Part shown: in pieces, positions 236-9,511 of the stretch
How positions within the stretch are numbered: position 1 is the first letter of the stretch
How the letters are laid out: each line of letters begins with the position of its first letter
Source of the DNA: a virus
Reading direction: 5' to 3' (one strand)
Virus record (IMG/VR): IMGVR_UViG_3300007708_000026
Coordinates: 1 to 23,316 of that record
Length of the DNA stretch: 23,316 bases
Position numbers and translations under genes: made by a program
The notes under the pieces: model-generated
The model's input: the letters and a program-made list of their open reading frames with translations, nothing else
What the model was told of the DNA's origin: nothing
The model's database searches: none

Positions 236-1195
236 TTAAATTTTTTCTATTTTGAACTCGTCTGCAGGTGTTATAGACTCTGCCATCTTAAGATGATTTT
301 TTGGTACTGGCTGAACGCTCTCAACAACAGGCTCTTCTTCAACTTCTGGTGTTGGTGGTTCTATTGACGGAACAAGAGTAGGTTCAGCCACTACTTTCTC
401 TTGTTCTTTTTTGGCTATCGTTTGATTCAAGGCTATAAACATTAAAACTGCAAGGGGATCAAACACTCCCACGATCATTAATATTACTATGCGGACGGCT
501 TTCTCGAGGAAACTGGTTTCTTCGGCTTGTTCGCCGTAGATGAGTTTTGCGATGTATTTGATTGGACCGACTTCGGCTTCGACTTGTCTGACTTCACTGG
601 CGTACGGTGCACGGGCTTCGCTGAGCTTGGTGAGCTCTTCTTGGCTGGCACTGGTTGATTTTGCAAGATCGGCTCGCTCTTTGGCTTGACTTCTTCTAAT
701 GGCAATGGAGCGATTGATGCCGGAGTCTCCACTGCCTGAGGAGGCTGTACTGGAGTTGGCGGCTGAACTGCCACCGGTTCTGGAGATCGTTTCAGTAACT
801 TGAAGATCCAATTGATTAAGTGTTCTACGCGACTCATTTATAATATCCTTATGAAATTTAATTTTTTCATCAATGGCAGCAAGTTTATATTGAGCTTCAC
901 CTACAACCAATGACTGGTCTCCGTGAGCTTTAGATAAGAAGCCAAAGATGCCCATGCTCGTTAAACTCATCAATACAACTATCGCTATTAGAAAATAGCT
1001 CTTAAGAAGTAATGAAGTGCTTTCCCAGTTTCTATATAGCCACGAAGTAACTACAAGCTTTGATACTTCAAGTGCGACACCCATTATTGCAATAGATACA
1101 GCAGCACCTGAAAATATCGCCATTAATCCCATTATAGCGTAATACGCTGCAATAGATGATAAAGAAAATGCTGATAGGAAAAGTAAATACGTCAT
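236..1195 (-). CDS. Four-helix phage membrane protein with central coiled region
   Basis: This is a 319-aa inner-membrane protein of unknown function. Hydrophobic segments lie near residues 2-28, 32-55, 67-88 and 232-255. The last one carries the sequence VFDPLAVLMFIALNQ, which I recall from membrane proteins of T4-like marine phages. Between helices 3 and 4 is a polar, partly coiled stretch with a low-complexity Ser/Gly/Ala patch (about residues 138-160). The C-terminus is a Pro/Glu-rich cytoplasm-like tail. The ATG overlaps the stop of the GIY-YIG gene as ATGA, so translation is probably coupled. From about 487 to 837 its codons shift strongly to third-position C (GCC, ACC, TCC, GTC), unlike neighbouring genes, because a second reading frame runs through that stretch. 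The function is not known; a role in host-membrane takeover or lysis timing is only a guess. Confidence 0.8.
   Translation of the reverse strand: MTYLLFLSAFSLSSIAAYYAIMGLMAIFSGAAVSIAIMGVALEVSKLVVTSWLYRNWESTSLLLKSYFLIAIVVLMSLTSMGIFGFLSKAHGDQSLVVGEAQYKLAAIDEKIKFHKDIINESRRTLNQLDLQVTETISRTGGSSAANSSTASSGSGDSGINRSIAIRRSQAKERADLAKSTSASQEELTKLSEARAPYASEVRQVEAEVGPIKYIAKLIYGEQAEETSFLEKAVRIVILMIVGVFDPLAVLMFIALNQTIAKKEQEKVVAEPTLVPSIEPPTPEVEEEPVVESVQPVPKNHLKMAESITPADEFKIEKI
487..837 (-). CDS. Nested out-of-frame gene, Pro/Lys/Ser-rich protein
   Basis: This 116-aa reading frame lies entirely inside the membrane-protein gene in another frame of the same strand. It starts MSRVEHLINWIFKLLKRSPEP, an amphipathic helix, followed by a TonB-like proline-rich part (PTPVQPPQAVETP) and a very basic Lys/Ser/Pro tail ending SSRKPSA. 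It has no Cys, no lipobox and no clear transmembrane helix. Its ATG is preceded by AAGGA at 846-850 with an 8-base spacer, as good as any ribosome site in the window. Its Pro codons (CCN) fall on positions 2 and 3 of the host-frame codons, which explains why the outer gene uses C in third position only here. The arrangement recalls embedded phage genes such as Rz1, but the sequence is not a lipoprotein. Function unknown; existence inferred from the ribosome site, composition and codon bias. Confidence 0.62.
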   Translation of the reverse strand: MSRVEHLINWIFKLLKRSPEPVAVQPPTPVQPPQAVETPASIAPLPLEEVKPKSEPILQNQPVPAKKSSPSSAKPVHRTPVKSDKSKPKSVQSNTSQNSSTANKPKKPVSSRKPSA

Positions 1196-1590
1196 AACTT
1201 TACATGAGTTCTATGAATTTTACAAGCGATGATTCCATTGTACCATTGGTCTTGTTTTTCTAAGACTTCGTATTGAAACTGAAGCTTAGCCTCTAAATAA
1301 GACATTGTACCTTTATTGCCACACATGTGCAATATTTCACGCGTAAAATTATGTTCACCTAACTCAGCAACGTCTTTTGTTAATTCATCCGAAGATGACC
1401 AGTATACTTTCCAATCAGAAGGTACCTTTACTCTTTTCTTTTTTCCTTTAAGCATCTTAGTTTTTGAAAACCAAAACAATTTCTTACCAATGTATCTTCT
1501 ACCATTAGTAAGATTAGTAATTAAATATACGTACCCGATATTTTTATCGATCAGATCTTCATTAAATTCTATGCCCTGATATGTCCACAT
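1192..1590 (-). CDS. GIY-YIG family protein, SegE-like
   Basis: This 132-aa protein carries an N-terminal GIY-YIG nuclease core: GYVYLITNLTNGRRYIGKK at about residues 19-37 gives the paired GxY and YIG strands. It continues with DWKVYWSSSDEL and HNFTREIL, the pattern I associate with SegE-type GIY-YIG domains of T4-like phages. A Glu (E99) in SYLEAKLQFQYEVL is a plausible metal ligand. Homing Seg endonucleases are usually longer with a DNA-binding C-terminus; this short form has little beyond the catalytic domain, so it may be a resident nuclease rather than a mobile one. GGA lies about 6 bases before the ATG, and the stop overlaps the next gene as ATGA. The active-site Arg is not certain by eye. 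Confidence 0.8.
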   Translation of the reverse strand: MWTYQGIEFNEDLIDKNIGYVYLITNLTNGRRYIGKKLFWFSKTKMLKGKKKRVKVPSDWKVYWSSSDELTKDVAELGEHNFTREILHMCGNKGTMSYLEAKLQFQYEVLEKQDQWYNGIIACKIHRTHVKL

Positions 1591-7370: not shown

Positions 7371-7635
7371 AGTTTACTCCTTTTGCTAATTCTTGTTGAG
7401 CTAAAACATTTTGTGCTTCAGGCGCTGGTCCAAGTCTTGGATCACGCTGACCTTTAAATATATGTTCAGGACAAGTTCTTGTAACGTCACATGTTGGCAT
7501 TTTGCAAATTGATTTATCCCAGTTTTCTGGATCTTGACATGGATATCTAAAACGATCTCCGCCGAATAAAGCAATAACTAATGGAACTAAAACAATTATT
7601 GCTAACCATTTAAAAAGTTTGATATCGCTATTCAT
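7360..7635 (-). CDS. Single-pass membrane protein with Cys-rich ectodomain
   Basis: This 91-aa protein has one N-terminal transmembrane helix (about residues 8-25). Four Cys follow in a short stretch (C33, C44, C49, C55, in YPCQDPENWDKSICKMPTC and DVTRTCPEHIF), with one more at C89. The Cys pattern fits disulfides in the periplasm. The start overlaps the endolysin stop region (TGATG), with AGGAG upstream. The position directly after the endolysin suggests a lysis-associated role. Function unknown. Confidence 0.72.
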   Translation of the reverse strand: MNSDIKLFKWLAIIVLVPLVIALFGGDRFRYPCQDPENWDKSICKMPTCDVTRTCPEHIFKGQRDPRLGPAPEAQNVLAQQELAKGVNCGK

Positions 7636-8255
7636 CAGTGAGCTCCTAGGACGTGAAGAGCGTGTTCATAATGCTTAATTCTATCGTCAAGACCAATAGT
7701 ACCACCATTGATTCTTTTTGTAAGAGTAACAATATCACCTGCATCAGCCCACTGGTTTAGGTTATTAGTTTCCCAGAACCAGCATGCTGACTGAGCAGCA
7801 CCTTCGAATGTTTGAAGATATTCAGAAGCTTCTTCAACGCTGATGTTAAGTGAAGCCGCGAACCAAGAATAGTTTTGCTTGCCAGTAAGTTGAATTAATC
7901 CACGACCACAATATCTAAATCCGTCACCAGATTCTTCTGGACCATTGCCCATTCTATTAGCATAAACCTTATTAGCAATTGCTTCTTGCTTATTTGGCAT
8001 AGATGCGTATCGATTTGCAATTTCGTCTGTTGGAAAATACTTTGGAAAGATTTTACGTAGTGTTGCGGCTTTGTAGTTTAAGTTCTCTTTAAGAGCAGTG
8101 AATCCACCTGACTCATGAGCACATTGAGCAATGAATGCCGCGATGCGTTGAGGAGTATTAATCTCGTAGTCTGGTAGCAGAACTGATAGAGCATCATACC
8201 AATTGTCAACATATGGATTTTTTGGAAGTAATTGTTTTAGTTGTTGTTTATTCAT
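7635..8255 (-). CDS. Endolysin, glycoside hydrolase family 19 (chitinase-like)
   Basis: This 206-aa single-domain lysozyme of the GH19 fold cleaves peptidoglycan at the end of infection. The catalytic Glu lies in AHESGGF (E48). The second acidic residue is in GNGPEESGDG (about E107/E108), and the substrate-groove motif YCGRGLIQLTGKQNY follows at about 115-129. There is no signal peptide or SAR helix, so release depends on a holin. AAAGGA precedes the ATG. It is flanked by spanins upstream and small membrane proteins downstream, which together form the lysis region. Confidence 0.93.
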   Translation of the reverse strand: MNKQQLKQLLPKNPYVDNWYDALSVLLPDYEINTPQRIAAFIAQCAHESGGFTALKENLNYKAATLRKIFPKYFPTDEIANRYASMPNKQEAIANKVYANRMGNGPEESGDGFRYCGRGLIQLTGKQNYSWFAASLNISVEEASEYLQTFEGAAQSACWFWETNNLNQWADAGDIVTLTKRINGGTIGLDDRIKHYEHALHVLGAH

Positions 8256-8795: not shown

Positions 8796-9062
8796 TCATT
8801 TTATACCCTCGTATATTTTCTTTTGTATTTCATACCATTCAATCCATGCATCATGCTTTACAGCGCATTCATAGTAAGCAGTATAATTTTCACTGACAGT
8901 TTTTGCTATTTCACTTATGTTATCGGATTCTTTTAACTTTTTTAAGTTAGGACACGGTGTTTTAAAACTTTGAGGTGCTTCTGGAAACTTAGCAACAATA
9001 GGCACTGTTGTAGAACAACCTGTTAGTAATATAACACTCAATAAAATTATTTCTTTAACCAT
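8796..9062 (-). CDS. o-spanin, outer-membrane lipoprotein (Rz1-like)
   Basis: This 88-aa protein has a short signal peptide ending in the lipobox LLTGC (Cys at residue 16), so the mature protein should be a lipid-anchored outer-membrane subunit. The mature part contains CPNLKKL, NYTAYYECAVKHDAWIEWY and QKKIYEG, a pattern I associate with Rz1-like lysis proteins. Its first bases overlap the end of the i-spanin gene by 16 bases, the classic overlapping spanin arrangement. GAGG lies 7 bases before the ATG. It would join the i-spanin across the periplasm to fuse the membranes during lysis. Confidence 0.85.
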   Translation of the reverse strand: MVKEIILLSVILLTGCSTTVPIVAKFPEAPQSFKTPCPNLKKLKESDNISEIAKTVSENYTAYYECAVKHDAWIEWYEIQKKIYEGIK

Positions 9063-9511
9063 TCGGGAGCCTCAGCTGCATCATTCAAAGCTTTATAAAA
9101 TTCTTTAGGTAGTTCACATTGACCGCCCGTGGCAAACTTAGTATCATACTTTACGATTTCACGATCAATGTATTTTACAACTTGATCTCCCTTAACTTTA
9201 ACTACTTGAGTTTTAGTTACTACCTTCTCAACTATCTTAACATTTTCTTGGCTAGACTTTACTTCAGCTTCTGCAACTTTCTGTTTAAGTTCAGTTACTT
9301 TAGCTTGCCAAGATTCTTCATTCGATATAGCGCCAGACATGTAAACACCGATGACAATTAGAACTATGGAGACTAACTGTATCGGTGTTTTGTAAACGTA
9401 TATTACCGGAATGGGAATATACTTAAGTAAGTAAGTTACTGCAAATCCTGCAACACCAATTAAGAGTATTGCATAAAAAATCCAATCAGGAAGGAATTGC
9501 AGTATCCACAT
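9047..9511 (-). CDS. i-spanin, inner-membrane subunit (Rz-like)
   Basis: This 154-aa protein has two N-terminal hydrophobic segments (about residues 5-28 and 42-62). A charged coiled-coil periplasmic domain follows (ESWQAKVTELKQKVAEAEVK and the repeating IVEKVVTKTQVVKVKGDQVV), then a C-terminal tail. A standard i-spanin has one N-terminal helix; the second helix here would leave both termini on the periplasmic side. It overlaps the lipoprotein gene by 16 bases, which is the main reason for the assignment. The ATG overlaps the preceding gene's stop by one base. Confidence 0.78.
   Translation of the reverse strand: MWILQFLPDWIFYAILLIGVAGFAVTYLLKYIPIPVIYVYKTPIQLVSIVLIVIGVYMSGAISNEESWQAKVTELKQKVAEAEVKSSQENVKIVEKVVTKTQVVKVKGDQVVKYIDREIVKYDTKFATGGQCELPKEFYKALNDAAEAPEWLKK

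Follow-up and report, generated by a model that had tools for sequence, protein, structure and literature searches.

Positions 487..837 of a 23.3-kb virus record, the whole of which is referred to here as the window, almost certainly hold a protein-coding gene that overlaps a phage membrane-protein gene in the +1 frame and is under purifying selection at the amino-acid level. The inner ORF lies wholly within the outer one (236..1195), on the same strand (Table 1). Sequence comparison shows that a large group of environmental, T4-like phages share the inner gene. The initial annotation of the window had described this second frame of 116 codons, with AAGGA 8 nt ahead of its ATG, as an overprinted phage gene. 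Both the frame and its ribosome site were confirmed on the minus strand, and the interpretation is supported by the start signals, by the open frame and by a constraint that is limited to the overlap.

Table 1. Coordinates, within the window, of the nested gene, its start signals and the genes around it.
Feature	Position	Strand	Basis
Upstream gene, 132-aa GIY-YIG protein (Pfam SegE_GIY-YIG)	1192..1590	-	PF19835, E 4e-39
Outer gene, 319-aa phage membrane protein	236..1195	-	ORF; 193 distinct homologues
Inner Shine-Dalgarno AAGGA, 8 nt before the ATG, within the outer frame	846..850	-	Sequence; GG core conserved
Inner start codon ATG	835..837	-	In all 83 P-type homologues
Inner nested gene, 116 aa, +1 frame (probable)	487..837	-	ORF; open frame in homologues; synonymous constraint

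Homologues of the outer gene

A first scan with the outer protein as query returned 32 loci. Profile scans with the outer protein added 80 more loci, and those of prokaryote genome assemblies 47; a profile scan with the inner protein gave 80 loci out of 182 encoding a relative. Removal of near-copies left 193 distinct outer genes. Homologues were classed as P-type (n = 83) when they carried an inner ORF that started at the homologous ATG and was rich in Pro, Ser and Lys. Three sequences that narrowly missed the automatic composition cut-off (L062, L129 and L195) were added to this class by hand, and two were kept out of it: L222, a GC-rich and far relative, and L028, which falls within the sister clade. 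The sister clade (n = 59) was divided into 26 W-type sequences, which have an ATG-started +1 ORF of at least 60 codons, and 33 N-type sequences, which do not. Three homologues near P-type that lack the gene (L023, L056 and L054) were treated as losses, less certainly so for L054, which sits on a long branch. As the ATG belongs to the definition of P-type, the independent evidence for the gene comes from the ribosome site, the stop codons and the synonymous rates.

The inner frame keeps its ribosome site and is free of early stops

The GG core of the Shine-Dalgarno sequence, 9-10 nt upstream of the inner ATG, was kept in 83 of 83 P-type sequences. The outer codon bearing this core was AAG in 81 of them and AGG in two; AAG makes up 30% of the lysine codons elsewhere in the same genes. 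The core therefore persists even where the outer lysine has been replaced by arginine. All 83 sequences were free of stops over the first 75 inner codons (one contig runs out at codon 73), as compared with 4.2 stops expected per sequence when synonymous codons were drawn from the outer-only parts of the same genes. For the window itself, the same draws predicted 3.9 stops where none was present (P = 0.0025). The initial annotation had looked to homologues for an open inner frame, and in the P-type sequences the ATG, the GG core and freedom from early stops were found together. Its observation that outer third positions turn to C over the inner frame also held, with 39% C inside the overlap in this window as compared with 13% upstream.

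Homologues without the inner frame, which it had held would speak against a gene, do exist: they comprise L023, L056, L054 and much of the sister clade. L023, L056 and L054 act instead as negative controls, since start, ribosome site and open frame are missing together in these three. In L023 the ATG is missing, the Shine-Dalgarno codon reads AAA and the first 75 codons contain four stops; its third-position C over the inner region was 10%, as compared with a P-type average of 33%. There were two stops in the inner frame of L056 and four in that of L054. No relocated intact copy of the inner gene was found in the loss lineages, whose partial contigs contain only the decayed copy with stops.

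Synonymous variation in the outer gene is suppressed over the overlap

Synonymous differences were counted in 34 phylogenetically independent P-type pairs, the expectation being calibrated for each pair outside the overlap. Over outer codons 121-235 there were 517 differences as compared with 952.6 expected (ratio 0.54, z = -18.8), while the ratio was 0.95 upstream of the overlap and 1.08 downstream. The drop began at the ribosome site (0.36 over codons 115-121) and finished near codon 235. Both P subgroups were constrained when taken separately, with ratios of 0.57 and 0.50 over outer codons 122-197, and the sister clade, used as a control, gave 0.96 over codons 121-235. The suppression of synonymous variation that was to be looked for in the outer frame is therefore present and confined to the overlap.

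These data bear on two explanations that dispense with a gene product. The open frame might be a by-product of the amino-acid make-up of the outer protein and of local codon bias. Part of the openness may indeed stem from outer composition, since an ATG-started +1 frame 60 or more codons long is found here in 26 of the 59 sister-clade sequences too, without clear constraint. Yet the codon draws predict stops that not one of the 83 P-type sequences contains, the strong constraint of P-type sequences is absent from the sister clade, and start, ribosome site and open frame disappear jointly in L023, L056 and L054. A chance open frame was rejected on the strength of the codon draws and the synonymous constraint, and we consider it extremely improbable. 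The constraint might otherwise be due to RNA structure or to another nucleotide-level element of the mRNA, because synonymous suppression by itself does not separate RNA from protein; moreover, folding of the region was slightly better than that of shuffled sequences (z -1.49). The kinds of change that were tolerated, however, depended on the inner frame. In P-type sequences, outer-silent changes that alter the inner protein occurred at 0.197 per site inside the overlap as compared with 0.350 upstream, and those creating an inner stop at 0.035 as compared with 0.546. Changes silent in both frames were not suppressed: they ran at 0.58 per site inside and 0.343 upstream, although this class is small, with 19 changes over 33 site equivalents. 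Their freedom speaks against an RNA element, as does the way in which the constraint tracks the ORF from ribosome site to stop. With doubly silent changes free and a folding z of only -1.49, an RNA element is disfavoured and seems to us very improbable. Comparison of inner fourfold sites with other third positions, and of dNN with dNS, did not discriminate, because the outer constraint dominates the sites concerned.

Properties of the two products

The AlphaFold2 model of the outer protein (mean pLDDT 79) has helices at residues 2-27 and 29-55, a long helical hairpin (62-142/157-225) and a last, membrane-like helix at 227-270, followed by an acidic, proline-containing C-terminal tail that is disordered in the model. 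Four membrane-like helices are predicted around the hairpin, rather than a single N-terminal transmembrane segment. The initial annotation had regarded the outer protein as a low-complexity Ser/Gly patch under the inner gene and hence tolerant of overlap. A patch of this kind is present, but it is short, covering about residues 142-159 (window about 719..772) at the tip of the hairpin. Most of the overlap falls on the hairpin itself, which is conserved and carries invariant residues (Q128, D130, R167, Q170, R174 and E206-A-E-x-G-P), so the outer protein is not simply of low complexity there. The Ser/Gly stretch is an insertion in the close relatives of the window; it is shorter in L004 and L005 and absent from most homologues.

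Of 34 outer homologues, 18 matched the Pfam domain DUF4407 (PF14362) weakly at E <= 0.01, the best with E 2.4e-5, and the window's own outer protein gave no match to it at E 0.01. To our knowledge, DUF4407 is a domain without known function. A structure search of the PDB with the outer model returned generic coiled-coil matches alone, at E 0.05 or worse, and a search of BFVD returned uncharacterised phage proteins. Outer homologues vary in length: four from the sister clade (L027, L028, L068 and L075) have long C-terminal extensions, for totals of 469-563 aa, that are absent from the window's protein. In one Methylophilaceae assembly (L213, 3940..5513) the outer homologue is split across two overlapping frames, through a frameshift or a sequencing error.

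The inner product begins with MSRVEHLINWIFKLLKRSPEP and has no cysteine, signal peptide, lipobox or hydrophobic signal. The initial description of its architecture, an N-terminal amphipathic helix followed by a Pro-rich linker and a basic Lys/Ser/Pro tail, was accurate; the net charge is +12, and structure prediction gave one helix, at residues 3-16, with the remainder disordered. P-type inner ORFs span 73-116 codons, and their products have a mean hydrophobic moment of 0.43 and a mean net charge of +12. The N-terminus is strongly conserved, with V4 in 83 of 83 sequences, W10 in 66, P17 in 77, and L/F at position 7, N/S at 9 and I/M at 11. The tail is simple in composition, so that, beyond the N-terminal helix and the KSKPKS region, homology at the amino-acid level is weak when taken by itself. 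The inner protein matched no family in Pfam, PHROGs or PADLOC. Its HMM had no hit outside an outer ORF, and hence to a stand-alone inner gene, except at the window's own duplicate locus (L033). Nor did tblastn find a match in 50,697 records of cultured phages, a search whose sensitivity the low-complexity filter may reduce.

Gene order and phage context

Genes for nrdA and nrdB and for thioredoxin- and thyX-like proteins, the latter two assigned by eye from their translations, lie near the nested pair in the window. The GIY-YIG gene lies immediately upstream and shares an ATGA overlap with the start of the outer gene. A GIY-YIG homologue was found in all 80 P-type loci with enough upstream sequence, being adjacent in 75 and overlapping by ATGA in 66, as compared with only 4 of 57 sister-clade loci. 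This linkage amounts to conservation of gene order, with which phylogeny is confounded. In one T4-like contig (L257, 6136..8279), nrdB is separated from the GIY-YIG/outer pair by two extra genes, whose products, judged by eye, resemble ATP-pyrophosphatase (asparagine-synthase-like) enzymes. A T4 Gp23-type capsid protein was encoded on 6 of 8 long contigs carrying homologues, and among cultured phages Methylophilales phage Melnitz is the closest relative of one of these contigs (67%). Elsewhere in the window, a gene for an o-spanin-like lipoprotein (LysC/Rz1-like, PF23793; 8796..9062, minus strand) overlaps by a few bases an i-spanin-like gene (9047..9511, minus strand), and a putative endolysin gene, read by eye, lies nearby at 7635..8255.

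Age of the inner gene and its relatives in the sister clade

More distant outer homologues lacked any comparable inner ORF with a ribosome site. These were found in Pelagibacter phage Mosig, Stenotrophomonas phage RAS14, Xanthomonas phage XacN1 and Salicola phage SCTP-2, and likewise in Flavobacterium phage immuto, Microcystis phage Mel-JY01 and two huge-phage assemblies. Phylogenetic distribution is the usual criterion for identifying the younger gene of an overlapping pair (PMC8227390), and by this criterion the inner gene is younger than the outer, which points to an origin by overprinting. The outer gene thus appears to be older and widespread, and the inner gene to have been overprinted on it and later lost in some lineages, where its frame decayed. 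In a tree built without the overlap columns, P-type sequences did not form one clade in the best topology; a single clade of P-type sequences and losses was not rejected (p-AU 0.349).

Within the sister clade, the GG core was present in 20 of 26 W-type sequences as compared with 7 of 33 N-type sequences, and the synonymous ratio was 0.86 for W-type (z -3.3) as compared with 0.99 for N-type. In a sign test on independent pairs, the W-type constraint was not significant (median p 0.22). The data are suggestive only of W-type ORFs being genes; such an ORF may be a proto-gene or a decayed form. Several W-type ORFs (L064, L068, L075, L085 and L090) encode 64-102 aa, often with a Trp-rich helix, and lack the Pro-rich linker. 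Possibly, though we would not count on it, the locus preserves, as a natural series, the birth and death of a de novo gene in a large dsDNA phage, from the weakly constrained W-type frame through the strongly constrained P-type gene to the decayed copies in L023 and L056.

A possible role for the inner protein

From the conserved arrangement of AAGGA, 8 nt and ATG, we infer that the inner protein would be translated by internal initiation at its own ATG, on the mRNA shared with the outer gene. Predicted structure and composition form the basis of a tentative proposal for what it does. The amphipathic N-terminal helix would place the product on the inner face of the cytoplasmic membrane, where its basic, disordered Pro/Ser/Lys tail could bind nucleic acid or an acidic partner, and it would work there with the coiled-coil membrane protein that the outer gene encodes on the shared mRNA. 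We put forward this role, as a membrane-peripheral partner of the outer protein, as one that may well prove wrong.

Other roles were weighed against the same features. A nested +1 arrangement with a coiled-coil membrane protein outside and a Pro-rich protein inside recalls an embedded spanin pair of the lambda Rz/Rz1 kind, acting in lysis. This was rejected, and is very unlikely, because the lipoprotein signal and topology that define spanins are absent: the inner protein has neither signal peptide nor lipobox cysteine, and the outer one has four membrane-like helices, not one. In addition, an i-spanin/o-spanin-like pair is encoded separately in the window, at 8796..9511. Alternatively, the GIY-YIG, outer and inner proteins could form a module that works at the membrane and targets host DNA or DNA entering the cell, superinfection exclusion being one example. 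The invariable presence of the upstream GIY-YIG gene in P-type loci, mostly with the ATGA overlap, is consistent with such a module, as are the inner protein's basic tail and its membrane-type helix, and the existence of overlapping phage genes with exclusion activity in phage Fc02 (PMC9936078). However, gene order here is confounded with phylogeny, no activity is known, and neither the outer nor the inner protein has a match in PADLOC, so that we regard the module as unlikely. Somewhat less unlikely, but still doubtful, is that the inner gene encodes a small cationic peptide, active on membranes, which acts without a partner on the host membrane or another target in the host. The amphipathic helix and net charge of +12 would suit such a peptide, but simple membrane disruption would not need a long conserved linker and tail (the KPKS region), and no toxicity is known. 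Partnership with the outer protein at the membrane is the role that we favour, at the tentative level given above.

Comparison with known overlapping genes

Nested same-strand genes are best known in small viruses and spanins. Common gene callers are biased against them (PMC6139136). The locus described here provides a statistically strong case of a nested gene in large T4-like phages, and suggests that scans of phage gene families for local synonymous constraint will reveal more. Outgroups without the gene and lineages that have lost it are both available, so that the locus allows direct study of how an overprinted gene arises, is maintained and disappears.

In phage lambda, Rz1 is embedded in the +1 frame of Rz and has a Pro-rich region (PMC6139136). 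The present pair is similar in that a gene for a membrane coiled-coil protein has a small Pro-rich protein encoded within it, in the +1 frame. It differs from Rz/Rz1 in its inner protein, which has no lipoprotein signal or cysteine, in the four membrane-like helices of its outer protein, and in its neighbourhood of nrdA, nrdB and thyX, the spanin-like pair of the window being located elsewhere. Like gene E of phiX174 and other overprinted viral genes (PMC8227390), the inner gene would encode an accessory protein in the second frame of an older gene and is phylogenetically restricted; unlike phiX174 E, it resides in the genome of a large T4-like dsDNA phage, and the sequences are unrelated. A further resemblance lies in disorder-promoting residues and enrichment in P, S and R, which are reported to typify the overlapping genes of small eukaryotic viruses (PMC6195259). 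Phage Fc02 carries two alternate-frame overlapping genes, olg1 and olg2, one of which was tested and acts in superinfection exclusion (PMC9936078); unlike the pair described here, their start codons lie 25 nt apart and they are not nested in a membrane coiled-coil gene. The initial annotation knew of no described example at this locus, and we likewise found no description of it in the open-access literature. Adding a family that is missing from Pfam and PHROGs, the locus combines a known arrangement, that of an overprinted nested gene, with a protein family that is new.
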